Source: Pontiella agarivorans (GTDB lineage Bacteria > Verrucomicrobiota > Kiritimatiellia > Kiritimatiellales > Pontiellaceae). From it: a stretch of DNA of 64,000 nt. Under the pieces are notes generated by a model, which searched no databases, had not been told where the DNA came from, and was given only the letters and a program-made list of their open reading frames with translations. The stretch spans positions 248,001 to 312,000 of the forward strand of contig NZ_JARVCO010000002.1 in the NCBI RefSeq assembly GCF_034531395.1, in the 5' to 3' direction. Below, piece after piece: positions 5,574-63,017 of the stretch. The position numbers and the translations under genes are program-made. Positions within the stretch are counted from its first letter, which is position 1; every line of letters begins with the position of its first letter.

Positions 5574-5598
5574 ACATTTCCAATCGCTGGAAATGAAA

Positions 5599-5633
5599 AC
5601 GGGTTTCCAATCATTGGAAACCCGTCTTTTTTT
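5599..5633 (+). terminator. Terminator after lysC, built on the 15-bp palindrome
   Basis: A perfect 12-bp stem with a 3-base loop occupies 5599-5625 and is followed by C and eight T. Its core (5605-5619) is TTCCAATCATTGGAA, an exact copy of the dispersed palindrome. A second copy with a C-A mismatch sits just upstream at 5578-5592. The stem can act on transcripts from either side, and ppc converges from the right. Confidence 0.93.
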
Positions 5634-5668
5634 TCCGGCCGTTGGATAGGGCCTTTCTCGACAGAAAA

Positions 5669-8329
5669 TCAGCCGGTATTTTTCATCGCGGCGGAAATGC
5701 CGGCAATGGTCACCATCAGGGCGTCTTCCAGTACTTCGGGATGGTTTTCATCTTTTTTGATCCGTCGCAGCACTTCACCTTGCAACAGGTTCAGCGGGTC
5801 GGCATAGGGATTGCGGACGAGCACCGATGCTCGCAGGGTTTCCCGTTCAGTTTTCACCGGCAGGTTTTTCACAATGTGTTCTGCAGTCTGTTTGGTGAGT
5901 GCCAGTTTTTCGCGGAGTGTGCGGCCGAGCGGTTTCAGTTCATCTGATGCCAGGCAGTCGTCGTAGTATTCCGCAACACGTGCATCGGCTTTGCACAGGA
6001 CCATATCGAGCATATCCATGAAAAAATAAAAAAACGGCCACTGCTCAATCATTTCCTGAAGAACAGGTTCTTTTCCGTCATCCACGGCGGCTTTCAGGGC
6101 TTCTCCGATGCCCAGCCAAGCGGGCAGCATCAGGCGGATCTGCGTCCAGGCGAAGACCCAGGGAATGGCTCGTAGGCTTTCAATGCCCCTGCCGGTTTTC
6201 CGTTTAGCCGGACGGCTGCCGATATAGAGCCGTCCCAGTTCCTGTTCGGGGGTAACCTGCCGGAAATATTTCACGAAGTCAGGATGGTCCCGGACGATAT
6301 CGCGGTAGGCCGTGCACGAAATATCCGACATCCGGTCCATCAGTTCCCGCCATTCCGGGCGGGCAACGGGCGGCGGGGCCAGCGTGGCTTCCGTGACGGC
6401 GGCCGTATATTGCATCAGATTGAAAACGGCATTGTCCGGGATGGAATATTTCTGCTGAATCACTTCGCCCTGTTCCGTAACCCGTATACGGCCGTCAACG
6501 GTTCCCGGGGCCTGGGCGAGCAGGGCATGCTCAACCGGTCCGCCGCCGCGGCCCACTGAGCCGCCGCGACCGTGAAACAGGTTCATCCGGATGCCGAATT
6601 CCTTTGCCACACGGGTGAGTGTTTCCTGGGCTTTATACTGAGCCCAGCTGGCGGCCAGTTTCCCCGCATCTTTACCGGAATCGGAATAACCGATCATCAC
6701 TTCCTGATCGCCCTGAATATCCTGAGCATACCACGGAATGGAAAACAGGCGTTCCATCGTTTTTCCACAGTTTTCCAGATCGGCCAGCGTTTCAAAAAGC
6801 GGAACAACGCGCAGCGGGCGGGTGATGCCGGCTTCTTTCTGCAGCAAGCGTACCGCCAGTATGTCCGAAGGTGAACCGGCCATTGAAATGACGTAAGCGC
6901 CCAGTCCGTCACGCGGCAACGTGGCCACCACATCCAGAGTATTCATCAGTTCCTGCTGTTCCGGGGTGAAAGGCATATCGGCCGGAATCAGCGGGCGCCG
7001 GTTTTGGCATTCGGCAATGAGGAAGGTCTGGCGTTTTTCTTCGTCCCATTCTTTATAGGAACCAAGTCCAAGATATTCCGTAATGGCATTGATGGCCTCT
7101 TCATGACGCGGTGCTTCCTGCCGGATATCGAGGCGGGCGAGCGACAGTCCGAAACACGAGACGCGGCGGATCAGGCTGAGAAGGCTTCGGTCGGCGATCA
7201 GATCGCCGTTGTTTTCCTTGAGAGAGCGGTAGCAGATTTTGAGCTGCTCGAGCAGTTCATCGGTGTTGTAATAGATGTCGGTTTTCGGAATGCCCTTTTT
7301 GCCTGTCAGTCGGGCCTCGCACCATTTTTTGGTGAGACTCATTTTAGTGCGGATACCACGCAGAAATACCCGGTAGGGCTCGCGGGCATCGCCCACACAG
7401 CAGGCGCGCAATTCTTCGCTGCAGTTTTCCATGGAAAGACGCAGGATGAGTTTGTTGATTTCCCGGTGATAGAGATCGGCTGCCATCCAGCGCGAACGCA
7501 GAGAAACCTCTCGGGTCACTTCGGCGGTTACATTGGGGTTTCCATCGCGGTCGCCGCCCATCCAGGAGGCAATGCGGATCGGGCAGCAGTCGATCGGCAG
7601 CTTTTCGCCCAGTGTCTGTTCCGCGATACGGTCAAGGCTTCGCATGTAGCGGGGCACGGCCTCCCAGAGAATTTCCTCAATAATGGCCATGCCCCATTTG
7701 GCCTCTTCAACGGGGGTGGGGCGGGAGCGACGGATTTCATCGGTCTGCCAGATGGCGGTAATCAGGATTTCCAGATCGGAGCGCAGTTCGGCCTGTTCAA
7801 AGGGGGTGAGATTCAGTCGGTCCTGCTTGGCCAGCAGGCTGGATATTTTACTGTTTTTCTGAATCAGCGTGCGCCGTTTAACCTCGGTTGGATGGGCCGT
7901 CAGCACCAGTTCAATTTCCATGCGGCTGAGCGTTTCAAGAATCTCTTTTTTCGGGATGCCCTGTTCGACCAGTTCGGGCAGCAGCTCTTCGAGTTTGCTG
8001 TACTGTTCGCTCAAAGCGTCTTCGGCATGGTTGCGGTGACAGCGCATCGAGTGATAGTTCTCGGCAATGTTGGCCATATTCAGAAAGTGGCCGAATGCCC
8101 GGGCCAGCGTCAGGGTATCCTCATCATCCAGTCCGCGAATCAGTTCCCGCAGTTTTTGCGCCGCACCTTCATCCTGATCGTTGCGCGAAGCTTTTGAAAG
8201 CGCGCGGATTTCCTCGACCCGTTCATAGAGTCGCTCGCCCGCCTGAGCTTTCAGGGTGCGTCCGAGGATTTCGCCGAGTAAGCGGATATCTTTTCGCAAC
8301 GGGGTTTGTGTTTCGTCCAGTTTTACCAT
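5669..8329 (-). CDS. ppc: Phosphoenolpyruvate carboxylase
   Basis: About 886 aa from the start chosen here. It carboxylates PEP to oxaloacetate, refilling the C4 pool that also feeds the aspartate pathway next door. The catalytic His motif VLTAHPTEVKRR, the GGDRDGNP motif, GYSDSGKDAG, FHGRGGSVGRGGGP and the C-terminal NTG are all present, so the enzyme looks complete. An upstream in-frame ATG at 8383 would add 18 residues without family similarity. MVKLDETQTPLRKD at 8329 fits PEPC N-termini better. It converges on lysC and is divergent from the SDR gene. Confidence 0.96.
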   Translation of the reverse strand: MVKLDETQTPLRKDIRLLGEILGRTLKAQAGERLYERVEEIRALSKASRNDQDEGAAQKLRELIRGLDDEDTLTLARAFGHFLNMANIAENYHSMRCHRNHAEDALSEQYSKLEELLPELVEQGIPKKEILETLSRMEIELVLTAHPTEVKRRTLIQKNSKISSLLAKQDRLNLTPFEQAELRSDLEILITAIWQTDEIRRSRPTPVEEAKWGMAIIEEILWEAVPRYMRSLDRIAEQTLGEKLPIDCCPIRIASWMGGDRDGNPNVTAEVTREVSLRSRWMAADLYHREINKLILRLSMENCSEELRACCVGDAREPYRVFLRGIRTKMSLTKKWCEARLTGKKGIPKTDIYYNTDELLEQLKICYRSLKENNGDLIADRSLLSLIRRVSCFGLSLARLDIRQEAPRHEEAINAITEYLGLGSYKEWDEEKRQTFLIAECQNRRPLIPADMPFTPEQQELMNTLDVVATLPRDGLGAYVISMAGSPSDILAVRLLQKEAGITRPLRVVPLFETLADLENCGKTMERLFSIPWYAQDIQGDQEVMIGYSDSGKDAGKLAASWAQYKAQETLTRVAKEFGIRMNLFHGRGGSVGRGGGPVEHALLAQAPGTVDGRIRVTEQGEVIQQKYSIPDNAVFNLMQYTAAVTEATLAPPPVARPEWRELMDRMSDISCTAYRDIVRDHPDFVKYFRQVTPEQELGRLYIGSRPAKRKTGRGIESLRAIPWVFAWTQIRLMLPAWLGIGEALKAAVDDGKEPVLQEMIEQWPFFYFFMDMLDMVLCKADARVAEYYDDCLASDELKPLGRTLREKLALTKQTAEHIVKNLPVKTERETLRASVLVRNPYADPLNLLQGEVLRRIKKDENHPEVLEDALMVTIAGISAAMKNTG

Positions 8330-8477
8330 GATTTTTCCGTCCGTGAATTTCGGGAAAGGTACCGGGAATCCGGCGCGTTGCAATTTTAAATGGTATAAAA
8401 TTGGTCCGGTATCAAGGCGGGCCGGTCAGGGTGTGGTTCTTGACCTGCCGCGGCAATTCCGATTTTATGGCGGGCTT

Positions 8478-9332
8478 ATGAAAGCTGCCCAGGTAAAACA
8501 ACGTACCGTATTGGTGACCGGATGCTCGTCGGGAATCGGCGAAGCGACGGCGTATTTTCTACGTGATCAGGGCTGGACGGTTTTTCCGACGGCGCGGAAA
8601 GCCGATGATCTTCAGACGCTGAGAAATGCAGGCTTTGATGCACTGGAACTGGATCTCGGAAGCAGTGAGTCGGTGCAGTCCTGCGTGCATACGCTGCTGG
8701 AAAAAGTTCCGGAAGGGCTGGGCGGTTTGGTGAATAATGCCGGAATGGCGATGCCCGGTGCGGTGGAGGATCTAAGTCGCGATGCACTTCGACGGCAGTT
8801 TGAGGTGAATGTATTCGGATTGCAGGAGCTGACCAACGGCCTGATTCCGACTTTCCGGGCGCAGGAATGGGGGCGTATTGTGACCGTCAGTTCCATCTAT
8901 GGCGTGATTGCCGCTCCAATGGTTGGAAATTACTGCGCTTCCAAATTTGCGGTTGAAGCGCTGGCCGACGCCCAGCGGGTTGAACTTTCCGGAAGCGGGA
9001 TTTCGCTGAGTCTGATTGAGCCCGGTCCGATTGTGTCTGCATTTCGGCGCAATGCTGCGGCCGCGCTGGAAGAGAATGTGATTTCGGATGATGTACGTTA
9101 TGCGGAAAATTACCGCAAAGAGGCGGCACGGCGGAAGAAGCAGTATAAAAAAGTCGATTTTATCAACCGTCCGCCGGAAGACGTGGCGAAGAAAGTTTTC
9201 CATGCGCTGGAAAGTTCACGTCCGAAACGCCGCTATGTTATCACTCTGCCGGCGTACCTTGGCGCGTTTATGGCGCGTTTTGTTCCGACGGCGCTGGTTG
9301 ACCGGGTGATGGCTCGGGAACTTCCTCGATAA
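8478..9332 (+). CDS. Short-chain dehydrogenase/reductase (SDR)
   Basis: 284 aa. The cofactor motif TGCSSGIGE (residues 14-22), NNAG near 85 and a YCASK active site with an upstream Ser (VSSIYG) define a classical SDR using NAD(P)H. The substrate is not predictable. The open frame extends upstream to 8256, but that part is antisense to ppc and lacks SDR similarity, so the ATG at 8478 is preferred. The last 65 bp overlap the end of the convergent acyltransferase gene, so both C-termini are encoded by the same DNA. Confidence 0.85.
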   Translation: MKAAQVKQRTVLVTGCSSGIGEATAYFLRDQGWTVFPTARKADDLQTLRNAGFDALELDLGSSESVQSCVHTLLEKVPEGLGGLVNNAGMAMPGAVEDLSRDALRRQFEVNVFGLQELTNGLIPTFRAQEWGRIVTVSSIYGVIAAPMVGNYCASKFAVEALADAQRVELSGSGISLSLIEPGPIVSAFRRNAAAALEENVISDDVRYAENYRKEAARRKKQYKKVDFINRPPEDVAKKVFHALESSRPKRRYVITLPAYLGAFMARFVPTALVDRVMARELPR

Positions 9333-10290: not shown

Positions 10291-10938
10291 ATGAAAAAAA
10301 GATGGAACACCTCGCTGTGTATACTGCTGGTTCTGGCCGGATGCCGGTCTTATCAGCCCGCATCGGTTTCCGATGGGGCGATTTGCAATCCGAATGTCGG
10401 CTGGAACGGATATTCCATACGCGTTCCCGACGGCGTTCAGAGGCTGCGTTCGTCGGCCGACGAAAATGTGCCGGACCGTGAAGAGGAGATCCGCGAACGT
10501 TATCGGGAAGCGAACGAACGCTATGTGGCTGATTATCACACGTCCTATTACGAACAGTTTCTTTTTCAAAATTCGGCGCGGTCTTTTTATCTCAGTTTTA
10601 TCTCGGAGACCTATAATTTTTCCAGAGGTTGGAACAGTCTGACATCCGTTGATAAACAATATATTATACAGAAAATGATCAATCGGAAGAAGGTCATCAT
10701 CAACGATACTGCGGCGTATTCCGAACAGCTTGAAATCAATGGGCAGCGCGGGTGGTATATCAGCGGAAGCCGCAGGCCCTATTTCCAGAAAAATGCCGAG
10801 CCGACAGCGTATGAGGGGATATTTCTGATCGGTAATTTGAAAGAGGCGTTCTGGATCGAGGCCTTCGGGGAAATCACTGCACGTGCGGAGATGAAAACAC
10901 GTGTTTTTGAAATGGCGGAGAGTCTGGAGGTGCAGTAA
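10291..10938 (+). CDS. Predicted lipoprotein, unknown function
   Basis: 215 aa. A lipoprotein signal peptide ends in LVLAGC (Cys about residue 18), so the mature protein is probably lipid-anchored. The rest is polar with no family I recognise and contains charged helix-prone stretches (DREEEIRERYREANERY). A TTG six bases upstream is in frame, but AGGAAG at 10272 and the MKKR signal-peptide pattern are also compatible with ATG 10291. It is the first of a run of small envelope genes ending with tatA. A copy of the dispersed palindrome lies 6 bp past its stop. Confidence 0.6.
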   Translation: MKKRWNTSLCILLVLAGCRSYQPASVSDGAICNPNVGWNGYSIRVPDGVQRLRSSADENVPDREEEIRERYREANERYVADYHTSYYEQFLFQNSARSFYLSFISETYNFSRGWNSLTSVDKQYIIQKMINRKKVIINDTAAYSEQLEINGQRGWYISGSRRPYFQKNAEPTAYEGIFLIGNLKEAFWIEAFGEITARAEMKTRVFEMAESLEVQ

Positions 10939-11046
10939 CTGTATTTCCAGGATTTGGAATGCGGGCGAGGGGTTAAACATTGTTTAGCATGTCTGTTTGG
11001 CCTACATTCCGGCGTCACTATTTTGTATGGAAACAGGTTGGGAAAG

Positions 11047-11259
11047 ATGATGAAACGATTGCTGCTCCTGATTTTATCTGCAGCGGTATTCACCGGTCGG
11101 GCTGGCGAAAAGAAGGATGATTCGGGCGGGGAAGGTATCCGTCGGCCGGCCCCGTATGTTTTCCAGCGTTTGGAAAACTGGCGAAGAACAGCAACAGCCC
11201 GATTATCGGTGATGTGGAGCACTGATTCGTGTGGAGGAACAGAAGCACGGATTCCCTGA
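11047..11259 (+). CDS. Small predicted secreted protein, possibly degenerate
   Basis: About 70 codons. GGGAAAG precedes ATGATG, and MMKRLLLLILSAAVFTGRAG is a credible signal peptide. After about residue 45 the composition becomes irregular, at the point where a copy of the palindrome (11161-11175) lies in the frame. Another frame just downstream reads NSNSPIIGDVEH before a stop. This could be a short real gene or a frame-disrupted remnant. No homology is recognised. Confidence 0.35.
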   Translation: MMKRLLLLILSAAVFTGRAGEKKDDSGGEGIRRPAPYVFQRLENWRRTATARLSVMWSTDSCGGTEARIP

Positions 11260-13708: not shown

Positions 13709-13908
13709 GGTTTTTCCTTTTCAACAGATGAAGCGGGTAAAGATAAGGGATATTTTTCCAATGTCTGGAAAAAAAGCGTATTTTCCTCAGCTAGTTACCG
13801 CGAAAAAACAGTTGCGGACGCTTACTAATCCTTTAATACTGGCCGCCGTACAACAGTGTGTGTGGAACGGGTGTTCCGATAACTGGAAATTACACAGGAG
13901 ACAGAGAA

Positions 13909-20912: not shown

Positions 20913-23900
20913 ACTCTTCGGCTACGAGGGATATGATCTCTTTGAGCATGGGCGTGGTTTTGTCGCGGTTGAGGGTGGGGTGACGTCCGCCGTAGGTTTT
21001 GTACTTTTTCTCTTTGGACATCATGACCTGGAAATTACGGACGATGATCGATTTGAGGTCGTGTTCGGCGGCGGTGATGCGCAGTTCGGCGATGAGCATG
21101 AGACGCTGTACCTCCGGGGGCAGTTTGCCGAAGCGGTCTTTGATCTCGCGTTTCATCCGGGTGATTTCCTGTTTGGTGGCGAGAGCGGAAATCCGCTGGT
21201 AGAGGCGGAGCCGGAGGTTTTCATCCTCGATGTAATCGTAGGGAATAAAGGCGCCGTTTTCCCGGTTTCCAGACTTTGGAGAAAGGTCGAGGAAGTCGAT
21301 TTTCACGGTGACGTCCATGAGCGGCGGCGGTTTTTTGCCCTGCAGGATGGCGATGGTGCGTTTGAGCAGCTGGCAGTAGAGGTCGAAACCGACGGCGGAG
21401 ATATGGCCGCTTTGTTTGGCACCGAGCATATTGCCGGCACCGCGCAGTTCGAGGTCGCGCAGGGCGAGTCGGAAACCGGAGCCGAGGCCGGTGTAGCGCT
21501 TGATGGCGTTCATGCGGTCGCGGGCGGCGTCGATGAGGTCGCCGCCGGGGGTAAGCATCATGAAGACAAAGGCTTTGTGGTTGGAACGTCCGACGCGGCC
21601 GCGGAGCTGGTAGAGATCGGAGAGGCCGAAGCGTTCGGCGTTTTCAACGATCATGGTGTTGCAGTTGGGAATATCGACACCACTTTCGATGATGGTGGTG
21701 CAGAGCAGGATATCGAACCGGCCTTCGACAAAGGCGTGCATAATTTCGGAAAGTTCTTTTTCGCCCATCTGCCCGTGAGCGACGGCAATGCGGGCTTCGG
21801 GGACGAGGGCCATCAGTTTGGTTTCGACGGTATGAATGGTTTTGACGCGGTTGTGCAGATAGAAGACCTGTCCATTGCGGTGGAGTTCAGCGCGAATGGC
21901 TTCGGCGATGATTTCCTCGTCGTAAGGAATGACGTTGGTATCGACCGGTTGGCGTTCCTGCGGAGCGGTTTTGATGGTGCTGAGGTCGCGAACACCGGTG
22001 AGGCTCATATAGAGCGTGCGCGGAATCGGCGTGGCCGACATGGTAATGAGATCGACCTGTTTCCGCAGTTCTTTGAGGTGCTCCTTGGCGGTGACGCCGA
22101 AACGCTGCTCTTCGTCAATGATGACGAGGCCGAGGTTTTTAAAGTTTACGTCTTTGGACAGAATGCGGTGGGTGCCGATGAGGATATCAACTTCGCCCTC
22201 CAGGGTTTTTAAAAGGGTTTTGTTCTGCTGTGCTTTGGTGCGAAAGCGGCTGACCATATCGACGGTGACCGGAAATGCAGCCATACGTTCAGCACATGAG
22301 TCAAAATGCTGCTGGGCGAGCACGGTGGTGGGCACGAGTACCGCGACCTGCATGCCATCCATGACCGCTTTAAAGGCGGCGCGCATGGCGACTTCGGTTT
22401 TTCCGAAGCCGACATCGCCGCAGAGCAGGCGGTCCATGGGGCGCAGTTTTTCCATATCGCGTTTAAGTTCTTCGGCAGCAGTCAGCTGGTCGGCCGTTTC
22501 GGTATAGGGAAAGGCGGCTTCGAATTCGGCCTGCATGGCGGTGTCTTTGGAAAAACGGAATCCGCGTTTGGCCTGACGTTCGGCCTGGGTTTGCAGCAGC
22601 TGGGCGGCAATATCCTTTACGGCTTCTTCGGCCCCGGCCTTGTCGTTCCGCCATTTCCGGCCGCCGAGGGTGTGTGGTTTCGGCGCATTTTTTCCCATGC
22701 CTTTATAGCGGGTGAGCAGGTGGGCCTGGGTGACGGGAAGGTAGACTTTTTCGCTTTTAGCATATTCAATGGCGAGCACTTCCATGCTTTTGTCGGAAAA
22801 GGTGGTTTCAACGATGCCGAGATATTTACCGACGCCGTGCTCGACGTGCACGACAAAATCGCCGGGCTGGATGTCGGCCGCCTCGTTGACGCGCTCCTGT
22901 TTCTGAAAGCGTTTGGCCGTTCGGGCGTGGGCGCTGCGGTTGGTGTGGTAGGCATAGAAGTCGGCTTCGGTGATCAGCAGAATTTTCCGATCAAAATCCA
23001 CCGCACTTTCATGGATTACGCCTTTGTGGAGTTCCAGGGATTGGAAGCCTTCGAGGTCGGAATAAAGTTCCGTGAAACGATTGAGCGTGCCTTCGGTTTC
23101 AAAAAAGAAATGGATATTCCAGTCATTGGATGCTTCGGCACAGCGTTGATCGACAAAGCGTCGGCGGGATTCTTCCGCTTCTTTGGGATGGGTGTCGTAT
23201 GAAACGGCGACGAGCCCGGTATCGTAAAAGCTGAAACCGGTTTCTACAGGGCGATGCCGGGTCGATGATGTGACTTGTACGTCGTTAACGGTGAGCGTGT
23301 TTTCCGGAAGCAGGTCGGTGAGCGGGCAGGTTTCGTCGCCTGCAAAACCGAAGTCGAGCTGAGGAAGCTGGACGGATTCGGTTTTTTCGATGGAGCATTG
23401 GGTCTGGTCGTCGAAATAGCGGATAGAGTCGATTTCGTCGCCGAAGAATTCGATACGGACGGGGCGGGGCGAGCCGGGCGGCCAGCAGTCGAGGATGCCG
23501 CCGCGCAGGGCGGCTTCGCCCTGGGCATAGACTTCGATGCCGAATTCGTACCCGGCTTCGGTCATCCATGCGCAGAGTGTTTCAGGGTTGTGTTCTTCGC
23601 CGAGTTTCAGGGTCTGAACAGCCTGTTCCGATTTTCCGGAGATTGGAACGTCCTGCTCCATGGCCTGGGGGCAGGTGATGATGATGAAGCGTTGTTTCTC
23701 GGAGAGGAGTTGAACGAGTTTGAGGTGTTCGCCGAAGACCGCGGGGTCTTTTTCCATAGGTTGGAATAAGCAGGGGCGGGCGGATTCCGGTGATGCGGTG
23801 CCGCCTGTTTGCAGTAGACGCTGCAACGAAAGGAGTGATTCGTGGAGACGCTCCATTTCGCGAACGTCGGCTGCGATCCAGAGTACATTTTTTTCCAAGG

Positions 23901-24036
23901 TCTGGAACAGGTCGGCGCAGAGCAGAGCCTGAGCGCTGATCGGGGTGTCTGTCAGCTGAATGGAGCTGGTTGAAACGCCTTTAAGCACCTCTCCGTTTAC
24001 CCGGAGGGTGCTGATTTTCTTCTCTTGAAATGACAT
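20908..24036 (-). CDS. mfd: Transcription-repair coupling factor Mfd
   Basis: 1042 aa, about 100 shorter than E. coli Mfd, mostly in the N-terminal UvrB-like module. It removes stalled RNA polymerase and recruits UvrA. The CarD-like polymerase-interacting domain (about 390-460, GDFVVHVEHGVGKYLG) precedes the SF2 translocase with Walker A GDVGFGKTEVA, the DEEQ box, SATPIPRTL and TIIESGVDIPN; the C-terminal D7 region follows. The N-terminus MSFQEKKISTLRVNG has no close alternative start. The gene holds two exact and at least two near copies of the 15-bp palindrome. Its last codon and stop sit at a REP boundary. Confidence 0.95.
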   Translation of the reverse strand: MSFQEKKISTLRVNGEVLKGVSTSSIQLTDTPISAQALLCADLFQTLEKNVLWIAADVREMERLHESLLSLQRLLQTGGTASPESARPCLFQPMEKDPAVFGEHLKLVQLLSEKQRFIIITCPQAMEQDVPISGKSEQAVQTLKLGEEHNPETLCAWMTEAGYEFGIEVYAQGEAALRGGILDCWPPGSPRPVRIEFFGDEIDSIRYFDDQTQCSIEKTESVQLPQLDFGFAGDETCPLTDLLPENTLTVNDVQVTSSTRHRPVETGFSFYDTGLVAVSYDTHPKEAEESRRRFVDQRCAEASNDWNIHFFFETEGTLNRFTELYSDLEGFQSLELHKGVIHESAVDFDRKILLITEADFYAYHTNRSAHARTAKRFQKQERVNEAADIQPGDFVVHVEHGVGKYLGIVETTFSDKSMEVLAIEYAKSEKVYLPVTQAHLLTRYKGMGKNAPKPHTLGGRKWRNDKAGAEEAVKDIAAQLLQTQAERQAKRGFRFSKDTAMQAEFEAAFPYTETADQLTAAEELKRDMEKLRPMDRLLCGDVGFGKTEVAMRAAFKAVMDGMQVAVLVPTTVLAQQHFDSCAERMAAFPVTVDMVSRFRTKAQQNKTLLKTLEGEVDILIGTHRILSKDVNFKNLGLVIIDEEQRFGVTAKEHLKELRKQVDLITMSATPIPRTLYMSLTGVRDLSTIKTAPQERQPVDTNVIPYDEEIIAEAIRAELHRNGQVFYLHNRVKTIHTVETKLMALVPEARIAVAHGQMGEKELSEIMHAFVEGRFDILLCTTIIESGVDIPNCNTMIVENAERFGLSDLYQLRGRVGRSNHKAFVFMMLTPGGDLIDAARDRMNAIKRYTGLGSGFRLALRDLELRGAGNMLGAKQSGHISAVGFDLYCQLLKRTIAILQGKKPPPLMDVTVKIDFLDLSPKSGNRENGAFIPYDYIEDENLRLRLYQRISALATKQEITRMKREIKDRFGKLPPEVQRLMLIAELRITAAEHDLKSIIVRNFQVMMSKEKKYKTYGGRHPTLNRDKTTPMLKEIISLVAEEW

Positions 24037-26215: not shown

Positions 26216-27187
26216 ATGCGCATCCTGATCGTCAAAACCAGTTCGCTGGGGGATCTGTTTCATGCGCTGCCGGCGGTGCATCTGCTGAAAGCCGCAATGG
26301 ATGCCGAAATCGACTGGGTTGTAAACACGCAGTATGTCGGGCTTGCGGAGTGTTTTTCCGATGTCCGGAAGGTGATCCCTTTTCCGCGTCAGGGCCTGAT
26401 TTCAAACCTTGGAGCATTCAGGGCGGAGCTGCGGAAGGAAACCTATGATCTGGTGGTGGATCTGCAGGGACTCCTGAAGAGTGCGCTGATCTGCCGGATG
26501 GCGAAACGGGCGAAACGGGCAGAAATTCTCGGTCCGTCGTTTCAGCGGGAAGGTGCGCGGTTTTTTTATTCTGCGGTTGTCGGGAAAAAAAACAAACAGC
26601 GCCACGCGGTGGAGGAAAATCTCGATGTACTCCGTTTTCTTGGAAAACCGGATTTCCCGGTTGAATTCCCGATCCGTTTTCCCGATGTTGACTTCCAGTG
26701 TCTGGAAAAAAAGCCGGTGGTGGTTTTTGCGCCATGTTCGCGGCATGCAGCTAAAAACTGGCCCTGGAAACGGTTTGTTGAGTTAGGGGAGCATCTGGAT
26801 TGCCAGGTGATCCTTGTGGGGGCACCGACCGATGTGGAAACGTGTGAAAAAATTGAAAATCACCTGCCGGAGGGGGCCTGCACCAACCTGTGTGGAAAAA
26901 CCTCGCTACTGGAACTCGGTGGTGTGCTGCAACGGGCGGATCTGGTGGTGACGGTGGATTCGGGGCCGATGCATATGGCTTCGGCAGCGGGTACACCGTG
27001 CCTTGCGATTTTCGGGCCGACCGATCCGACGCGCGTCGGCCCCTTTGGCGATCAGCATCGCGTGGTGCGTGTTTCCGGTGTCCGGACGTATTCAAAGCAG
27101 GATTTAGACAGTATCAGAATGGTAAAAGCCATCGATGTTATTCAAACAGCAAAGGGTATGCTGAACGATGAAACTGTGGGATTATGA
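26216..27187 (+). CDS. Glycosyltransferase family 9 (heptosyltransferase-like)
   Basis: 323 aa. The N-terminus MRILIVKTSSLGDLFHALPA, the nucleotide-sugar motif VTVDSGPMHMASAAGTPCLAIFGPTDP (about 240-265) and the mid-region VVVFAPCSRHAAKNWP are those of GT9 enzymes such as WaaC/WaaF, which build the inner core of lipopolysaccharide from ADP-heptose. Acceptor specificity cannot be assigned. GTG at 26213 is an alternative start just before ATG 26216. The end overlaps the next gene by 20 bp, indicating one operon. An exact palindrome copy encodes FQCLE inside it. Confidence 0.88.
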   Translation: MRILIVKTSSLGDLFHALPAVHLLKAAMDAEIDWVVNTQYVGLAECFSDVRKVIPFPRQGLISNLGAFRAELRKETYDLVVDLQGLLKSALICRMAKRAKRAEILGPSFQREGARFFYSAVVGKKNKQRHAVEENLDVLRFLGKPDFPVEFPIRFPDVDFQCLEKKPVVVFAPCSRHAAKNWPWKRFVELGEHLDCQVILVGAPTDVETCEKIENHLPEGACTNLCGKTSLLELGGVLQRADLVVTVDSGPMHMASAAGTPCLAIFGPTDPTRVGPFGDQHRVVRVSGVRTYSKQDLDSIRMVKAIDVIQTAKGMLNDETVGL

Positions 27188-30917: not shown

Positions 30918-31733
30918 ATGTATAATCGCCAAGCACAGAATATCGGGGGGATTGCCCGAATCACGCCATCGGTAAAGTTTCTGCTGATTGTGAATGTTGT
31001 TGTTTACTTCATTGATTCCTTCACGTCCTCCGTTCCGGAATACCGTTTTCTCACGAACACGTTTGCTCTGCAGGCCAGCTGGTGGACCACGCCGTTCGGT
31101 TTCGGCGAGCTGTTCACTTATATGTTTATTCATGCCAGTATCGGCCATTTGCTGATGAATATGATGGGGCTTTATTTTCTGGGGCCCACCTTGGAGCGGG
31201 GTTTGGGGCCGTACCGATTTTTTATTCTGTATTACACCAGCGGTATTCTCGGAGGACTCGGCTGGTCGCTTCTGGCCGGGCCGGGGCAGATCTGTGTCGG
31301 GGCATCCGGTGCGGTGATGGGGGTTTTAGGTGCTTTTGCCATGCTGTATCCCAATACAGAAGTGGCCCTTATCTTTCTGCCCAACGTGCCGTTCAAAGCC
31401 TGGAAATTTGTTTTGGTGCTGATGCTGTTTGAATTTTTTCAGACGTTTGTGCATCCCCTCATCGGCGGCATTGCCAACGCGGCTCACCTTGTCGGAGGCC
31501 TTGCCGGGATGGGCTATGCGATGACCATCCGTCATCCGCATATTATCGAACGTCTGAAAACAAAACTTCCAGACCTTGGAAAAAAGAAGGCGAAGCCCCG
31601 TGCAAAATCGTCGGCGCAGCCGACGCTCTCGAAAGCTGAGGTCGATGCCATTCTTGATAAAATCGGGAAAGAAGGCATGGGGGCTTTGACGCCGCGTGAA
31701 CGGGAAATGCTCAAGCGCGCAACCCGCGGGTAG
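30918..31733 (+). CDS. Rhomboid-family intramembrane serine protease
   Basis: 271 aa, six predicted membrane helices. The catalytic Ser is in CVGASGAVMGVLGAF and the His in NAAHLVGGLAGMGYA; HASIGHLLMNMMGLYF is the conserved helix 2. It cleaves membrane proteins within or near the bilayer. The C-terminal 60 residues are a cytosolic Lys-rich linker and an LSKAEVDAILDKIGKEG helix pair found in PVC/Bacteroidetes rhomboids. GGGAAAG before ATG 30918 excludes the upstream in-frame starts. An exact palindrome copy encodes LPDLGK. Confidence 0.93.
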   Translation: MYNRQAQNIGGIARITPSVKFLLIVNVVVYFIDSFTSSVPEYRFLTNTFALQASWWTTPFGFGELFTYMFIHASIGHLLMNMMGLYFLGPTLERGLGPYRFFILYYTSGILGGLGWSLLAGPGQICVGASGAVMGVLGAFAMLYPNTEVALIFLPNVPFKAWKFVLVLMLFEFFQTFVHPLIGGIANAAHLVGGLAGMGYAMTIRHPHIIERLKTKLPDLGKKKAKPRAKSSAQPTLSKAEVDAILDKIGKEGMGALTPREREMLKRATRG

Positions 31734-33748: not shown

Positions 33749-33798
33749 AGCACGCAAACTATACACGTCCATTCGTGAAAAGCCAAATGAAGGGAAAG

Positions 33799-40350: not shown

Positions 40351-41694
40351 ATGTTTGAAAATTTAAGTTCTGCCCTGCAGAAAACATTCAAAGACCTGCG
40401 AGGCTATGGCAAGCTGACGGAGAAAAACGTCAAGGATTCGATGCGCGAGGTGCGCATGGCGCTGCTGGAGGCGGATGTCAATTTTAAGGTGGCGCGCGAC
40501 TTCGTCAAAAAAGTGCAGGAAGATTGCATGGGCGAAGAGGTGATGGGCAGCATTACGCCCGGTCAGCTCGTCGTCAAACGGGTGCAGGATCACCTCGAAG
40601 AACTGCTTGGCGGCGCGCATAAGGATTTTGACCTCACCGGTAATCCGGCCTCTGTAATGATGATGGGCCTGCACGGTTCCGGGAAAACAACGTCGTCGGG
40701 TAAACTGGCGCTGCGCTGGAAAAAATCGGGCCGCCGGGTATTGCTTGTGGCCTGCGATATCCGTCGTCCGGCCGCGGTGGAGCAGCTGATGATTCTGGCG
40801 GGGCAGGTAGGCTGCGATGTGATCGGCCCCGAGCCCGGTGAAACGGTTCCAATGCTTGGAAAACGCGCGGCGGAGCATGCCCGGAATGCAAAGTATGATG
40901 TAGTGATCTATGACACCGGCGGCCGTTTTCAGGTGGATGATGAGCTGGTGCAGGAGCTGAAGGAATTCAGCGAATTTACGCAGCCGAAAAACCGGGTTCT
41001 GGTGCTGGACGCTGCCATTGGGCAGGAATCGGTCAATGTGGCGGAAACGTTCCGCGATGCGGTCGGTCTGACGGGCCTGATTCTCACGAAGCTCGATGGC
41101 GATGCGCGTGGCGGTGCGGCACTTTCGGTTCATGCTGTGACGGGCTGTCCGATTCTGATGACGGGGTCCGGGGAAAAGATGGAGGATCTGGAGCCGTTCT
41201 ATCCAGACCGCATGGCCTCGCGTATTCTGGGCATGGGCGACGTTGTCAGCTTTGTGGAGAAAGCACAGGGGCTGATCGATGAGAAAGAAGCCTTGAGGAT
41301 GCAGGAGAAGCTTTCGAAGAATCAGATGGACCTGGAGGACTTCCTGAGCCAGATCCAGCAGATGAAAAAACTGGGTCCGATGAGTAATTTGTTTGATATG
41401 ATGCCCGGTGATGCCATGAAAATGGACCAGAAAAAGAAGGATGCCATCGCCTCCGCTTCAGAGCTGGAAATGAAGAAGTTTGAGTCGATCATTCAGAGTA
41501 TGACGCCGTGGGAGCGGCGGAATCCGAAAAAAATCGATCGGTCGCGCCGATTGCGTATTGCGGCGGGATGCGGGCGCAAGTTCCAAGATGTCAACCAGTT
41601 GCTTAAACGGTTTGATCAAATGGGAAAAATGGGCAAGCAGTTCAAAAAGATGGAAAAAAGGTTGCGGCACCTGAAGAAGTTCACTACAAAGTAG
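40351..41694 (+). CDS. ffh: Signal recognition particle protein Ffh
   Basis: 447 aa. The N domain (1-90) and GTPase domain with G1 GLHGSGKTT (about 107-115) are followed by G3 DTGGRFQVDDE, where DTAGR would be usual, then TKLDGDARGGAALS. The C-terminal M domain (about 325-440, SMTPWERRNPKKIDRSRRLRIAAG) binds SRP RNA and signal peptides. It targets membrane proteins co-translationally. It heads the ffh-rpsP-khpA cluster, a widespread gene order. A palindrome copy encodes VPMLGK in the G domain. Confidence 0.97.
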   Translation: MFENLSSALQKTFKDLRGYGKLTEKNVKDSMREVRMALLEADVNFKVARDFVKKVQEDCMGEEVMGSITPGQLVVKRVQDHLEELLGGAHKDFDLTGNPASVMMMGLHGSGKTTSSGKLALRWKKSGRRVLLVACDIRRPAAVEQLMILAGQVGCDVIGPEPGETVPMLGKRAAEHARNAKYDVVIYDTGGRFQVDDELVQELKEFSEFTQPKNRVLVLDAAIGQESVNVAETFRDAVGLTGLILTKLDGDARGGAALSVHAVTGCPILMTGSGEKMEDLEPFYPDRMASRILGMGDVVSFVEKAQGLIDEKEALRMQEKLSKNQMDLEDFLSQIQQMKKLGPMSNLFDMMPGDAMKMDQKKKDAIASASELEMKKFESIIQSMTPWERRNPKKIDRSRRLRIAAGCGRKFQDVNQLLKRFDQMGKMGKQFKKMEKRLRHLKKFTTK

Positions 41695-42468: not shown

Positions 42469-43185
42469 ATGAGTGAAGCGCTTCAGATTGATGTGATTAC
42501 GCTGTTCCCCGGAATGCTCAAAGGGTTTCTGGAGGAGAGTATGATGAAACGGGCGGCCAAGGCCGGGCTCGTGGAGTTCAATCTCATTAATCCGCGTGAT
42601 TTCACAACCGATAAGCATAATACGACAGATGACCGTCCGTTTGGTGGCGGCCCGGGGATGGTAATGAAATGCGAGCCGTTGTTTTCGGCGGTTGAGTCTG
42701 TCAGGACGCCGGAGAGTCGCGTGATCCTTATGACACCTTCCGGCAGCCCGTTTAGGCAGAACGACGCAGAGCGGATTTCCAAAGAGTGGAAACACCTGAT
42801 TTTTATCTGCGGGCATTATGAAGGCGTGGATCAGCGGGTGATTGATGCACTGGTGGATGAGGAAATTTCGATTGGCGACTATGTGCTGACCAATGGAGCG
42901 CTTTCAGCGGTTGTGGTGATTGATGCGGTGGTTCGGCTGCTTCCCGGTGCACTGGGGGCAGGAGAGATTGCCACCGAGGAGGAATCCTTTTCTTCCGGAT
43001 TGCTGGAATATCCGCAGTACACCCGTCCGCCGGAGTTTCGGGGATTTGAGGTGCCGAAAATTCTGTTTTCGGGGGATCATGGAAAAATTGAACAGTGGCG
43101 TCATGAACAGGCGCTGAAGCGCACGAAAGAGCGCCGGCCGGATTTGCTGAAGCATTCCGGTGAAAAGGACGAAAACAACACTTGA
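42469..43185 (+). CDS. trmD: tRNA (guanine-N1-)-methyltransferase
   Basis: 238 aa. It methylates G37 of tRNAs reading CNN and some others, to prevent frameshifting. Trefoil-knot SPOUT features are present: [10 protein letters not shown] (about 57-66), [21 protein letters not shown] and [14 protein letters not shown], plus LEYPQYTRP near 180. An in-frame ATG also exists at 42460; 42469 has GGA at a better spacing. It is usually preceded by rimM, which is missing here. rplS follows after 63 bp. Confidence 0.96.
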
Positions 43186-43663: not shown

Positions 43664-44311
43664 ATGAAAAATCCCGATGTCCTGCTTTATGAAGAAGAAG
43701 CTTGGGCGTCGGGTTTTTTGCGTCTGTGTGGAGTTGATGAAGCGGGCCGCGGGCCGTTGGCCGGACCGGTTGCGGCGGCGGCAGTGATTTTTGATCCCGG
43801 TTATATCCGTGCCGAGCTGGTTCCAACTTTTGGAAAGCTTACGGACTCCAAGATGATGAGCGAAAAGCGGCGTGAGGAATTTTTCCAAATTCTGGAAGCC
43901 TGCGATCATGCGCGAATCGGGGTGGGCATAATCGGCCCCGCAGAGATTGATGAAATCAATATTTTAAAAGCGACTCATAAAGCGATGGGGCTTGCGATAA
44001 AACAGGTTGATGCCGATTTTGCGCTGGTTGATGGTTTGCCGGTGAAAGGGTTGCCCTGTGGGCACAGAGCCATTGTGAAAGGCGATGCGCTCTCGATCTC
44101 TATTTCTGCTGCGAGCATAATAGCTAAAGTCACCCGCGACCGTATGATGGTTGAGCTTGATGCACAATATCCGGAATACGGATTTGCCGGGCATAAAGGT
44201 TACGGCACCAAAAAGCATCTCGAAGCGCTTCAGCGGTTTGGGGCCACGCCGGTGCATCGTCAGTCATTCCGGCCTGTAGCGGAGCTGAGACAGGGCGAAT
44301 TATTCGAATAG
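43664..44311 (+). CDS. rnhB: Ribonuclease HII
   Basis: 215 aa. It cuts the RNA of RNA-DNA hybrids, including single embedded ribonucleotides. GVDEAGRGPLAGPV (about 19-32) carries the first Asp-Glu pair, VDGLPVKG the next Asp, and VTRDRMMVELDAQYPEYGFAGHKGYGTKKH the rest of the active site. Two exact palindrome copies lie within 77 bp (43821 and 43883), encoding VPTFGK and FQILE. The 3' end overlaps the convergent ybeY by 12 bp. Confidence 0.96.
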   Translation: MKNPDVLLYEEEAWASGFLRLCGVDEAGRGPLAGPVAAAAVIFDPGYIRAELVPTFGKLTDSKMMSEKRREEFFQILEACDHARIGVGIIGPAEIDEINILKATHKAMGLAIKQVDADFALVDGLPVKGLPCGHRAIVKGDALSISISAASIIAKVTRDRMMVELDAQYPEYGFAGHKGYGTKKHLEALQRFGATPVHRQSFRPVAELRQGELFE

Positions 44312-47969: not shown

Positions 47970-48230
47970 ATACAAAAAGGGGACGAGGGCCGGATCATTG
48001 TTCGGGGCCCGGAAGGGGTGGGGTTAAAACCGGCCTAATCGGCTGGCGGCCATGTCTTATTCGAAGTCATTGCCCGGGAGTTAAGGCGATTTCGCGCATG
48101 CCGTCAACCCTATTGGCAGAGTTCCGGAGGGTGGAAATAAGATCAATTATTCCAAGGGTTGGAACGATTTATGCTTTAAATTCTGGAACTTGTTTTGAAC
48201 GGAAATCTATGAATCAAGGGGTATGAGAAA

Positions 48231-56131: not shown

Positions 56132-57250
56132 TTATAAACGGTCGGCATATTTGGTGTGGAAGGCCTTCACCTCGGCCATCTGGGCTTCGGGAAGTTCGTG
56201 CTCTTTCAGGAAATTGTAAGCGCGTCGGCCGATCAGGAATGATTCGCTGTTGAGCAGTGGGATGGTGTTGGAAACCACCAGTTCGGAATCAAAATTGTGC
56301 TCGGTCATCAGATTAAGCATGAGATGCACTTCGTAATAACTTCCAAGGTTTGGAAGCTGGGCGCTGAGGAGGTCGTAGAATCCTTCTGGAGCCGCCAGAT
56401 CGGTGGAGGCCAGTGACGAGAGGTAGAGCACCTGCTTTTTGGAATCACCCTGCGGAAAGAGTTCAGCCATGGTTTGATAGTAGGTTTCAGGGCCCTGGCT
56501 CTGAAAATATTCAATAGAGGCGCTGGCGAGTTCGGTCGTGCCGTCAAGCGCCAGTGTTTTGATCTGTTTTTGCACGGCGGGGTCGGTGATATTTCGTTTA
56601 GAAAGGGCTTCTACAGCAAAGGCCACCTCAGAACTGTTGCTGTTTTTCAGCATAGTGAGCAGCTGTTCTGTTCCGATGGTTTCAGCGGTAATGTTCTGAA
56701 TTTCCGTCTGCATGTCGCCGTGAACCCAGTGCCAGAGGGTATAGCAGGTGTATACCGCACCAGCCACAAAAGCGGATTTATCGGAGAGCAGTGTCGCGCT
56801 GGAAGTTCCGTCAGTATCCGATTCTTCATTCATCATGGCATCGGCGGGCGAAACAATGTCTGCGGCACTCACATCGGCCAGAGTGGAATGTTCGTCGTTC
56901 AGGATTTTTATAAGTTTGGCGTGATCAGCTTGGGTAAACTGCTCATGCCCCATTTTGGTGAGGTTTCCGCCCTTTGGAAATTCATAGCGTATAAATCCGC
57001 CGTGCACATCCCAGAGGAGTCGGACGGTGATGATTTCGCACTGGCCGTCTCCGCAGATGACGGAATCGACGTCGGTATAGTATTCTTTGATAAATCCGTT
57101 TGCGTTCAATACCTGAAAAACCGGCTGGATACGAGGTTCCTGAACTTCAAATCCGGGATGGAGAACCAGCGCTTCAAAAGAAGCCGCCGCGTATGCGGCG
57201 GAGGCCAGTGTGCCGGCGACCAGTAATGTGAAAATCGTTTTCATATTCAT
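56132..57250 (-). CDS. Secreted protein of unknown function
   Basis: 372 aa. The signal peptide (MKTIFTLLVAGTLASAAYA) is clear. The middle region looks alpha-helical with repeated short helices (SSEVAFAVEALSKRNI, TELASASIEYFQSQGPETYYQTM, KKQVLYLSSLAST), compatible with HEAT-like repeats, but no family is certain. The first domain has a CGDGQC pair. An ATG at 57244 is an alternative start. It is 100 bp upstream of the DUF2231-cytochrome gene and may be cotranscribed. One palindrome copy encodes LPNLG. Confidence 0.6.
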   Translation of the reverse strand: MNMKTIFTLLVAGTLASAAYAAASFEALVLHPGFEVQEPRIQPVFQVLNANGFIKEYYTDVDSVICGDGQCEIITVRLLWDVHGGFIRYEFPKGGNLTKMGHEQFTQADHAKLIKILNDEHSTLADVSAADIVSPADAMMNEESDTDGTSSATLLSDKSAFVAGAVYTCYTLWHWVHGDMQTEIQNITAETIGTEQLLTMLKNSNSSEVAFAVEALSKRNITDPAVQKQIKTLALDGTTELASASIEYFQSQGPETYYQTMAELFPQGDSKKQVLYLSSLASTDLAAPEGFYDLLSAQLPNLGSYYEVHLMLNLMTEHNFDSELVVSNTIPLLNSESFLIGRRAYNFLKEHELPEAQMAEVKAFHTKYADRL

Positions 57251-59008: not shown

Positions 59009-60163
59009 ATGGGTGTAAGCCTATATAAGAGAATGTCTAAAACCGTCGAAATCGCACTGGCCATGAACTATGCGAATCCTTTTGTCCGCAAAGCGGTTGA
59101 AGGGATAGCCCGTTATACCTTTCATCGGGGAAACTGGCGGTTTTTCGCTCCGCATGGAGCCCCCGAGGTGACGTTGGCGGAACTCAGCGAATGGAAGGGC
59201 GGCGGCGTAATCGGTATGCTGGATCGTCAGTCGGTCTCCGGCTTGCGTAAACGCGGAATTCCCGCGGTTAATATATTCGGCCGTTTCAGTGAACTTCCTG
59301 AAACCTCTGTGGTGGTGGATAATCAGGAAATCGCCCGAATGGCGGCTGAATATTTTATCCATAAGGGCATTCGTCGATTTGCCATTACCGGGCGTCGGGT
59401 TTTCGGCGATGCAACACTGAAATATCAGGCCTATCTCGGAACACTGGCTGAATATGGGTTCCAATGTCTGGAACTCAAATCGCGTCAGGCCATTCAGAAT
59501 CTCGGGGCGGAAATCCAGACTTTGGAAGGCGACGGACCGGTCGGGGTATTCGCCACGGAAGATCCGGTGGGACGCGTGGTGATCGATGCCTGTTCTGATC
59601 ACGATTTGCGGGTGCCGGAGGAGGTTTCTGTGCTGGGGGTGAACAACGATCTGTTTGCCTGCGAAATGCTGCACCCGCAGATGTCGAGCATTGAACTCAG
59701 TCCGGAGCGCATCGGCTGGCAGGCGGCAAAAATGCTCGATGAATTGATGCAGGGGGGGCGTCCGCCCGAGGAACCGGTCCGGATTTCTCCGGAACGCATC
59801 GTAGAGCGCCATTCAACGGATCTGGTGGCCGTGGGCGACCGGGTGGTGGGCGATGCGCTGCGTTTTATTCGTGATCATGCCCATCAGTCGATTCTGGTCG
59901 ATGATGTTGCCCGAGCTGTTCACGTTGCGCGCCGCACGCTTGAGCATAAATTCCGTAATCTTCTTTGCATAACCGTTCATGATTCCATTCGCCGTGAACG
60001 CATTGCCCGGGCCTGCCGCCTGCTTAAAGAGACCGATATGCTGGTGGAAGAGCTGGCCGAGTCCTGTGGCTATACTACGCGCGAGCGTTTCAATCAGGCA
60101 TTTAGAACCGAAACGGGGACCACGCCCTCCGGCTACCGAAAACGATACCGTTTCACCGATTGA
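59009..60163 (+). CDS. XylR-like transcriptional regulator (sugar-binding domain plus AraC HTH)
   Basis: 384 aa. The N-terminal 280 residues resemble a LacI-type periplasmic-binding fold (VEIALAMNYANPFVRKAVEGI, GVFATEDPVGRVVIDACSDHDLRVPEEVSVLGVNNDLFAC). The last 100 are an AraC/XylS double helix-turn-helix (HQSILVDDVARAVHVARRTLEHKF, then VEELAESCGYTTRERFNQAF). It is probably an activator responding to a sugar acid or related sugar, since kdgK and eda follow. An inner in-frame ATG at 59033 (MSKTVEIALAMN) may be the true start; neither has a strong ribosome binding site. A palindrome copy encodes FQCLE. Confidence 0.88.
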   Translation: MGVSLYKRMSKTVEIALAMNYANPFVRKAVEGIARYTFHRGNWRFFAPHGAPEVTLAELSEWKGGGVIGMLDRQSVSGLRKRGIPAVNIFGRFSELPETSVVVDNQEIARMAAEYFIHKGIRRFAITGRRVFGDATLKYQAYLGTLAEYGFQCLELKSRQAIQNLGAEIQTLEGDGPVGVFATEDPVGRVVIDACSDHDLRVPEEVSVLGVNNDLFACEMLHPQMSSIELSPERIGWQAAKMLDELMQGGRPPEEPVRISPERIVERHSTDLVAVGDRVVGDALRFIRDHAHQSILVDDVARAVHVARRTLEHKFRNLLCITVHDSIRRERIARACRLLKETDMLVEELAESCGYTTRERFNQAFRTETGTTPSGYRKRYRFTD

Positions 60164-62130: not shown

Positions 62131-62168
62131 AACCGCCGTTCTCTTTTGTTGCGTTCGGCGGTTTTTTC
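62131..62168 (+). terminator. Terminator after eda
   Basis: AACCGCCG / CGGCGGTT form an 8-bp stem around a 17-base loop, followed by T6 minus a few bases (TTTTCG). A long loop but otherwise typical; it lies 22 bp after the stop. Confidence 0.8.
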
Positions 62169-62259
62169 GTGAAATTGCGGCGTTTATTTTATGCTGCGCA
62201 CGGATGGTCTGGAGGTGGGGCTGACCGTATTTTTTCGCAGATTTGCGGTGGCGAAGCGG

Positions 62260-62928
62260 TCATTCAAAGGCTGTTTTGAATGCTTCGAAGGCTTCTTTCA
62301 GGTCGGCCAGTTCCTGTTTGAGGTCGGAGACTTCGTCTTCCAGGGTTTGGATGCGTTCAAGGCGGCTGGGTCCGGTCTGCATTTCGGGGACGGCGATTTC
62401 TTCGGGTTCTTCTTCCTGGATTTCGGGCGCGGCGCCGAATAGGTGTGCCCAGCGCCGTTCGCGTTTTCCGGGCTGGCGGGGGAGCTGGACGACAAAGCAG
62501 CCTTCTTCATGATTTTTGAGTTCGTGGAGCAGCATTTCAACCTGGTTGGAATCTGCGAGGGCGTGGAGGCGGGAGCAGTGGGCGCGCAGATCCCCGGGTG
62601 TTTGCGGGCCGCGGATGAAGAGTTCGCAGAGGATGGCCATCTGGGAGAGTGAAAAACTCCAGTGCTCGGCAACGTTGTGACGGTATTTCATGACGCGGCT
62701 TCCGGATGCGGAGACTTCGACGGCGAGTTTGTGCTCGGTGCGGAGTTCAAAGAGCGTTTGTTCCACTGTGGCGGAATCGAGCTCCATGACGGGATAGCGG
62801 TTATTCTTCTGATTGCAGGCGTTAACGAGTGCGTTGAGGGTCAGCGGATAGTGATCCGGTGTGGCCATCTCTTTTTCGATGAGGCATCCCAGGACGCGTT
62901 GTTCGACGGGGCTGAGTTCAAATTCCAT
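62260..62928 (-). CDS. YceH-like (DUF480) protein
   Basis: 222 aa. The N-terminal two winged-helix modules (ELSPVEQRVLGCLIEKEMATPDHYPLTLNALVNACNQKNNR and later LSQMAILCELFIRGPQTPGDLR) are diagnostic of DUF480. Acidic linker and a C-terminal coiled coil (LERIQTLEDEVSDLKQELADLKEAFEAF) follow. YceH function is not established; nucleic-acid binding is suggested by the folds. GGAG seven bases before ATG 62928 sets the start; the open frame reaches 62949. Confidence 0.88.
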   Translation of the reverse strand: MEFELSPVEQRVLGCLIEKEMATPDHYPLTLNALVNACNQKNNRYPVMELDSATVEQTLFELRTEHKLAVEVSASGSRVMKYRHNVAEHWSFSLSQMAILCELFIRGPQTPGDLRAHCSRLHALADSNQVEMLLHELKNHEEGCFVVQLPRQPGKRERRWAHLFGAAPEIQEEEPEEIAVPEMQTGPSRLERIQTLEDEVSDLKQELADLKEAFEAFKTAFE

Positions 62929-62985
62929 TTCGGGTCTCCAATCGGTCAAAATTTAACGGTTCAAAATAGGGGATGCGTGGTGTTA

Positions 62986-63017
62986 TTTCAATGGTTGGAA
63001 ACTTCCAATCATTGGAA
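62986..63017. repeat. Side-by-side pair of palindrome copies
   Basis: A one-mismatch copy (62986-63000) and an exact copy (63003-63017) are separated by two bases in the region between the divergent yceH-like and DRTGG genes. Both palindrome centres are 17 bp apart, so the arms could face the same side of a bound protein array. Confidence 0.7.

Follow-up and report, generated by a model that had tools for sequence, protein, structure and literature searches.

Here, we describe a 15-bp gapped palindrome, TTCCARNNNYTGGAA, that recurs along a 64-kb stretch of the Pontiella agarivorans genome (contig NZ_JARVCO010000002.1, positions 248,001 to 312,000; hereafter the window, C2:248001-312000 of the 4.44-Mb, 12-contig genome G000). 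We put at roughly 0.5 the probability that this palindrome, in its fuller form TTCCARNSNYTGGAA, is the duplex-DNA recognition site of a putative homodimeric protein, distributed chromosome-wide in some Kiritimatiellia and most likely chromosomal in role. An earlier note, made from the letters of the window alone, had claimed at least 17 copies and a strong enrichment, and both claims hold: 18 exact copies span positions 5578-63017, against a mean of 0.02 and a maximum of 1 in 100 dinucleotide shuffles of the window, none of which reached 18. When the purine/pyrimidine (R/Y) rule of the pattern is ignored, TTCCA-N5-TGGAA occurs 21 times in the window, and each other gap from 0 to 15 bases gives 0 or 1. 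Genome-wide, G000 contains 1006 copies of TTCCARNNNYTGGAA and 3 of a reversed-pattern control, so the window is typical of its genome and the motif is not confined to it. In a 224-kb sample of G000 (the window plus loci L031-L038), an order-3 Markov model (five runs) predicts 1.4 copies of TTCCA-N5-TGGAA where 52 are observed, and 27 strict copies are coding compared with 3.05 ± 1.3 (maximum 5) in 20 protein-preserving codon shuffles; neither type of null model named in the note accounts for the counts. Spacing among the first 100 listed G000 sites looks random (coefficient of variation 1.06).

Which genomes carry the motif? Counting in relatives, as the note had proposed, covered 288 genomes of the phylum (G000 included): counts of at least 51 are found only in the window's class, where they range from 51 to 2106, and the highest count outside it is 16. 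We infer that the carrier class is Kiritimatiellia from a search for closely paired sites in the genomes of named species, which returned at least 117 stretches; among the matches listed, the labels are mostly Kiritimatiellae, Kiritimatiellales, Pontiellaceae, Lentisphaerae, Verrucomicrobia or uncultured bacterium, with a few others (Plebeiobacterium, Parabacteroides, Prevotellaceae, Firmicutes, Spartobacteria). Pontiella sulfatireligans F21 has at least one array, L177. Genome G029, used below alongside G000, belongs to the same order as G000 and shows up to 94% protein identity to such named loci. Five genera hold both site-rich and site-poor species, the poor species of one of them still having 17 sites: counts are 2106, 2088, 1406, 1006, 134, 11 and 10 in genus g1, 60, 6 and 4 in g3, 178 versus 3 in g14, 110 versus 3 in g46, and 159 versus 17 in g8. 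As distant families have the same half-sites, the system would be old and repeatedly lost, and one ancient system lost several times seems the simplest history. The site-poor genomes G047 and G084 possibly retain a remnant of sites, since they hold 11 and 10 copies against 0 and 1 of the reversed pattern; samples of them gave 1 and 2 exact sites (0.2 expected in each) and 6 and 7 one-mismatch sites (4.6 and 4.0 expected). A scan for replacement palindromes (5-base halves, gaps 0-24) in 60-100 kb each of five site-poor genomes found none in three, and in G084 and G118 found 6 copies versus 0.38-0.9 expected, which is not comparable to the motif.

The motif is tolerated within genes to the point of reshaping proteins. 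All gene calls come from a home-made codon model; these calls put 10 of the window's 18 copies in coding and 8 in intergenic DNA, in line with the note's claim that both kinds of DNA are involved. For G029 (1.83 Mb), neighbouring genes were called around 121 strict sites; 90 of these are coding, compared with 19.4 ± 3.7 in protein-preserving codon shuffles, and sites per 20 kb follow a Poisson distribution (mean 1.35, variance 1.41). Frame 0, which encodes FQxLE, is favoured by 49 of the 90 coding sites in G029 and by 13 of the 27 in G000. The peptide FQxLE occurs 78 times in G029 (49 of them with exact-site codons) versus a mean of 4.5 and a maximum of 10 for 23 permuted peptides, an enrichment of about 17-fold, and 14 times versus 1.1 in G000, so the motif altered proteins in the window's order; the corresponding counts are 2 versus 0.83 in pooled site-poor DNA and 0 in 80 kb of G012. 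Atypical DNA, an indirect proxy for foreign DNA (200 kb of G029 with less than 65% called coding), holds 5 sites where 13.4 are expected (P 0.006). Separately, a stretch of G029 contig 3 at about 340-440 kb (C3b 100-200 kb) combines a poor codon-model fit and lower GC with 1 site per 100 kb, and may be either an acquired island or a set of very large repetitive genes.

Conservation was assessed by aligning the 117 named loci to G029 at 68-86% DNA identity. Ungapped alignments covered 12 G029 sites, all coding, of which three were set aside as lying in the pairs that had brought the locus in. Among the remaining nine, all ten fixed bases are kept at seven, compared with 1.39 expected from identity-matched windows (P ~3e-5), and the R/Y rule is broken at one of the seven. 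Spacer identity at 10 conserved G029 sites is 58% over the five bases. Of 155 other N5 palindromes in these alignments, 15 are conserved. In this sample of nine sites the motif seems to be actively kept.

Neighbouring copies tend to sit 2, 3 or 4 helical turns apart. The 117 named loci, selected for close pairs, gave 203 spacings between consecutive sites no more than 150 bp apart: 161 measure 31-32 bp, 20 measure 21-23 bp and 5 measure 41-44 bp, and most of the rest fall near multiples of 10.4 bp, the best-fitting period (Rayleigh R 0.92). R is 0.85 for 87 pairs separated by more than 50 bp, a range on which the scan had not selected, although some of these distances are sums of neighbouring steps. 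Of 30 genomes, G012 has the most pairs at exactly 31-32 bp (724 among its 1764 sites), and G047 and G084 have 0; per site, such pairs number 0.01-0.09 in families f1 and f2 and 0.17-0.72 in other families. G000 has 11 among its 1006 sites where about 0.5 are expected. Solitary sites thus predominate in the window's order, alongside an excess of phased pairs. Of 176 clusters placed in nine locus sets, 130 are intergenic, 35 coding and 11 at locus edges. Tandem gaps hold 80 of the intergenic clusters, convergent gaps 26 and divergent gaps 24, against gap-length shares of about 57, 21 and 22%, and intergenic clusters are closer to gene ends than to starts. Close pairs in G242 and G035 are likewise mostly away from gene starts. 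When 931 predicted proteins from 153 loci near arrays were clustered, grouped by locus and not by genome, the widest family reached 7 loci, and three of its seven members have a site no more than 700 bp upstream. Another family (median 441 aa, from several of L068-L184, 5 loci) has such an upstream site in six of nine members. Phased arrays are also seen in three IMG/VR viral contigs (L050 3034-3164, L051 2786-2946 and L061 650-767) that carry terminase, portal or head genes, the arrays being upstream of the terminase gene and not directly before it; if they infect motif-bearing bacteria, these phages may exploit or respond to the same putative binding protein.

What is conserved within the motif is a symmetric pair of half-sites around a loose centre. 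About 90% of 52 relaxed G000 sites have G or C as their centre base, and T tends to precede and A to follow the palindrome; beyond these T/A-rich flanks, no conserved sequence outside the palindrome was seen in G000 and G012. The flanks are strongly T/A in G012 (80 kb, 28 sites), where AGSCT is the commonest centre; in G087 (19 kb, 7 sites) it is ATSAT. One-mismatch sites are enriched (67 versus 14.8 expected in G000, 344 versus 98.6 in G029), their changes falling mostly on the outermost base and position 5, and two-mismatch sites are near background (161 versus 143.4 and 1099 versus 949.9). Outside sites with at least nine of ten matches, the nested core CCA-N5-TGG is hardly enriched, with 46 copies versus 38.0 expected in G000 and 130 versus 121.5 in 600 kb of G029. 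Complementary bases stand at positions 6 and 10 in 16 of the 48 strict sites of G000; in G029 they do so in 50 of the 90 coding sites, against about 47 if the two positions varied independently. Since these positions do not covary, a folded hairpin is not what is kept in the window's order. The centre base has no clear orientation relative to genes either, being C in 42 and G in 32 coding sites of G029, G in 12 and C in 11 of G000, and evenly split (5 and 5) between genes in both genomes. The motif is a DNA-level site, not an RNA one.

How might such a site work? A cooperative homodimer would need just such a site: a gapped palindrome, unconstrained in its spacer and repeated on the same helix face. 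The protein would bind TTCCARNSNYTGGAA, T-rich before and A-rich after, at hundreds to thousands of chromosomal places; judging from the symmetry and the fixed 5-base gap, the two half-sites would lie one helical turn apart and take one subunit each. The spacing spectrum suggests that dimers on neighbouring sites would cooperate if they share a helix face at a distance of 2, 3 or 4 turns. Their task would be chromosomal rather than promoter-specific, such as nucleoid architecture, segregation or occlusion. We favour a cooperative duplex-DNA-binding protein because of the same-face arrays and the unoriented centre base, and therefore, of the roles offered in the earlier note, chromosome organisation fits best, with DNA uptake as the main rival. 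A chromosomal role is preferred to a regulatory one because of the chromosome-wide scatter, the conservation in coding sequence and the lack of a widely recurrent neighbour gene near the arrays. The matS sites of MatP, the sites of SlmA and Noc, and parS are likewise palindromic dimer sites tolerated in genes and number in tens, unlike the present motif with up to 2106 copies per genome and a Poisson scatter in G029. Lrp/AsnC sites are 15-bp odd palindromes phased at about 31 bp, and so share length, odd symmetry and phasing with the motif; however, the AsnC-type helix-turn-helix (HTH) domain PF13404, searched in 53 genomes, had no match at E <= 0.001 in G000, G124, G157, G245, G003, G029, G032, G203 and G212, and Lrp/AsnC was rejected as the binder on account of its absence from G000 and other site-rich genomes.

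Several observations weigh against a cooperative protein with a chromosomal role. Of 28 named-locus sites aligned to G029 (35 of the 117 loci, which were picked for having sites), 9 are exact and 5 more have one mismatch, so that sites are often gained and lost. Of 10 coding sites of G000 aligned across families to G029, one (in uvrB) is exact and one differs at a single base. Uptake sequences would be just as likely to be depleted in atypical DNA. In the window's own lineage phasing is weak: the five spacings below 150 bp among the first 100 G000 sites are 21, 53, 79, 27 and 62 bp. An A-T pair occupies positions 6 and 10 in 20 of the 28 sites of G012 and in all 7 of the G087 stretch, so that the centre there is usually palindromic and compatible with a hairpin. 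Finally, the covarying DNA-binding protein that the note had suggested looking for did not emerge: among the matches listed, none of 14 single-protein candidates from G029 covaries with the sites, and none of these candidates (7 searched in 14 genomes and 7 in 9) is present in site-rich genomes and absent from their site-poor congeners. The candidates were drawn from 1336 predicted G029 proteins of at least 50 aa, ranked with a home-made, rough HTH matrix with 18% of G029 outside the ranking, and were searched as concatenated queries that left out the multi-copy AraC and LacI types as well as NtrC, RhuM and Bro types. A MerR-like protein with an upstream site was found only in G032 of 14 genomes. 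During this survey we observed that three G029 proteins, resembling RsfS (C3b 267932-268435), DksA (C3b 291564-292196) and the main sigma factor (C5 266189-268153) and named by inspection, carry lysine-/alanine-rich, histone-H1-like N-terminal tails.

The main rival is DNA uptake, in which a transformation surface receptor would prefer DNA carrying the motif, and biased uptake with recombination would spread and preserve it. The counts, the scatter in and between genes, the reshaped peptides, the conservation above the surroundings and the rarity in atypical DNA all parallel the DNA uptake sequences (DUS) and uptake signal sequences (USS) of Neisseriaceae and Pasteurellaceae, as PMC2397512 portrays the DUS. 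Patchy site loss would follow loss of competence, and ComEC (PF03772) is matched in 51 of 53 genomes; however, it is matched in site-rich and site-poor genomes alike, including G047 and G084, and is undetected in G115 with its 370 sites, so it does not discriminate. Same-face arrays at 31-32 bp, intergenic where sampled, are unexpected for uptake, and unlike DUS and USS the motif is symmetric, with a free spacer and helically phased arrays in many lineages. To our knowledge, no known uptake sequence is a symmetric dimer site. As both conservation and depletion in atypical DNA also fit uptake sequences, we regard this rival as unlikely without dismissing it. Rather more doubtful is a large transcriptional regulon, with the sites as operators of one global regulator, paired like ComK boxes. 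The K-boxes of ComK, in which AAAA-N5-TTTT boxes share a helix face with 8, 18 or 31 bp between them, offer the nearest published geometry that we found, a 5-base-gap palindrome paired at whole turns: the spacings given in PMC3536758 translate to start-to-start distances of 21, 31 and 44 bp, compared with 21-23, 31-32 and 41-44 bp here. The arrays upstream of the terminase gene in phage contigs L050, L051 and L061 would also suit a regulon. Yet the half-site differs from that of ComK, copies number up to 2106 per genome with most G029 sites inside genes (90 of 121), arrays lie nearer gene ends and in convergent, tandem and divergent gaps alike, and recurrent neighbours are few, the widest family covering 7 of 153 loci with an upstream site in three of seven members. 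ComK itself was rejected as the binder, since PF06338 is matched in 0 of 11 genomes and, among 14 control genomes, in B. subtilis only.

The earlier note had likened the motif to HIP1 of cyanobacteria, and that likeness holds for a genome-wide, coding-tolerant, class-restricted iterated palindrome and is not supported for the one nested short core examined, CCA-N5-TGG. On a HIP1-like reading, a DNA methylase together with linked repair would create or maintain the motif. Both are clade-specific, highly iterated palindromes missing from some lineages, the motif is over-represented beyond base and codon nulls, and its near-misses at the outermost base and position 5 recall the outermost bases of HIP1 (PMC4390886). 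In contrast to HIP1, the motif is longer and gapped, CCA-N5-TGG alone is hardly enriched, and no comparable replacement appears in the samples of five site-poor genomes, the strongest reaching 6 copies versus 0.38 expected. Ten fixed bases are also long for a methylase site, and we consider this explanation improbable. Repetitive extragenic palindromes (REP) spread as mobile repeats by their associated Y1 transposases (RAYT) would account for palindromes that are arrayed in many lineages and often follow stop codons directly, and two identical spacers in one G087 array look as if they arose by tandem duplication. Y1 transposases (PF01797) are matched in 32 of 37 genomes but do not covary with the sites, with 0 in G148 (191 sites) and G050 (60 sites) and 21 in site-poor G015; moreover, the surroundings are unconserved beyond the T/A-rich flanks in G000 and G012, and coding sites hold their fixed bases while the spacer drifts, which makes a mobile repeat very improbable. 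RNA hairpins acting as terminators or mRNA stabilisers have the slightest chance: one window site lies within a terminator-like hairpin, several intergenic copies come close behind stop codons and the usual centres of G012 and G087 could pair, but positions 6 and 10 do not covary as pairs in G000 and G029, the copies are helically phased and often within genes, and the centre base is not clearly oriented.

The individual window copies, none assigned to a strand, illustrate this variety. The first, TTCCAATCGCTGGAA (5578..5592), is intergenic and starts at the fifth base past the stop of a gene for an amino-acid kinase with ACT domains (4227-5573); 27 bp from it, TTCCAATCATTGGAA (5605..5619) is enclosed by an intrinsic-terminator-like hairpin (acgggt-site-acccgt) followed by a T run, an arrangement that is not the rule. 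TTCCAGAGGTTGGAA (10620..10634) falls in a predicted coding sequence (CDS) without Pfam match (10468-10938), TTCCAGGATTTGGAA (10945..10959) a few bases past its predicted stop at 10938, and TTCCAGCGTTTGGAA (11161..11175) and TTCCAATGTCTGGAA (13756..13770) are intergenic. Within mfd, the gene for the transcription-repair coupling factor, lies TTCCAGGGATTGGAA (23032..23046), and directly upstream of it TTCCAAGGTCTGGAA (23893..23907), which would be N-terminal coding if the longer open reading frame 20908-24036 is correct. Further genic copies are TTCCAGTGTCTGGAA (26693..26707) in a family-9 glycosyltransferase gene, TTCCAGACCTTGGAA (31567..31581) in a rhomboid-family gene, TTCCAGGGTCTGGAA (33635..33649) in uvrB, whose best G029 match, 71% identical in protein, also carries a site at these codons, TTCCAATGCTTGGAA (40847..40861) in ffh (SRP54), and TTCCAACTTTTGGAA (43821..43835) and TTCCAAATTCTGGAA (43883..43897), 62 bp or about six turns apart, in the ribonuclease HII gene. 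TTCCAAGGGTTGGAA (48150..48164) lies between divergent genes, TTCCAAGGTTTGGAA (56341..56355) in a predicted CDS without Pfam match (56132-57250), a second TTCCAATGTCTGGAA (59459..59473) in a regulator gene with a Peripla_BP_3 sensor and an AraC-type HTH_18 domain, and a second TTCCAATCATTGGAA (63003..63017) between divergent genes. Three relaxed copies do not follow the R/Y rule, namely TTCCATGCGCTGGAA (9198..9212), TTCCATAGGTTGGAA (23752..23766) and TTCCAAAGAGTGGAA (42777..42791), likewise unstranded. Both uvrB (31772-33772) and mfd (20908-24036) belong to nucleotide-excision repair and have one or more sites each, possibly by coincidence.

Two other repeated words came up along the way. G061, a member of a different family within the phylum, is enriched in the reversed control pattern AAGGTYNNNRACCTT, of which it has 55 copies; among the matches listed, these nearly always read AAGGTCAGCGACCTT or the complement of it, and many lie close to the ends of contigs. 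With its fixed centre the pattern looks like a single dispersed repeat rather than a second system, and 59 other genomes searched of that family have 0-5 copies. The 224 kb of G000 also contain a second gapped palindrome, CTGCA-N17-TGCAG, 9 times versus 0.61 expected, which may be a tandem or family repeat.

In conclusion, few bacterial words match such abundance and coding tolerance. Chi, DUS/USS and HIP1 are abundant words tolerated in coding sequence, each marking a major process or an open question. The earlier note knew of no description of the motif, and none turned up in our searches of open-access PubMed Central: the exact strings and uptake sequences of Verrucomicrobia led to no paper, and the papers listed for palindromes of Kiritimatiellia or repeats in Pontiella genomes did not describe it. 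We tentatively picture, at a little under even odds, an undescribed address system of Kiritimatiellia that is selected even in housekeeping genes, changes proteins, is read by a putative cooperative protein coating same-face intergenic arrays in some lineages and solitary sites in others, and has been lost whole in several species. Since five genera hold both site-rich and site-poor species, the gene responsible should be mappable by comparison, in a class that, according to PMC7356697, has few cultured members. The motif joins the abundance of uptake sequences with the helical phasing of transcription-factor sites, which suggests docking sites for a putative protein that handles the whole chromosome.

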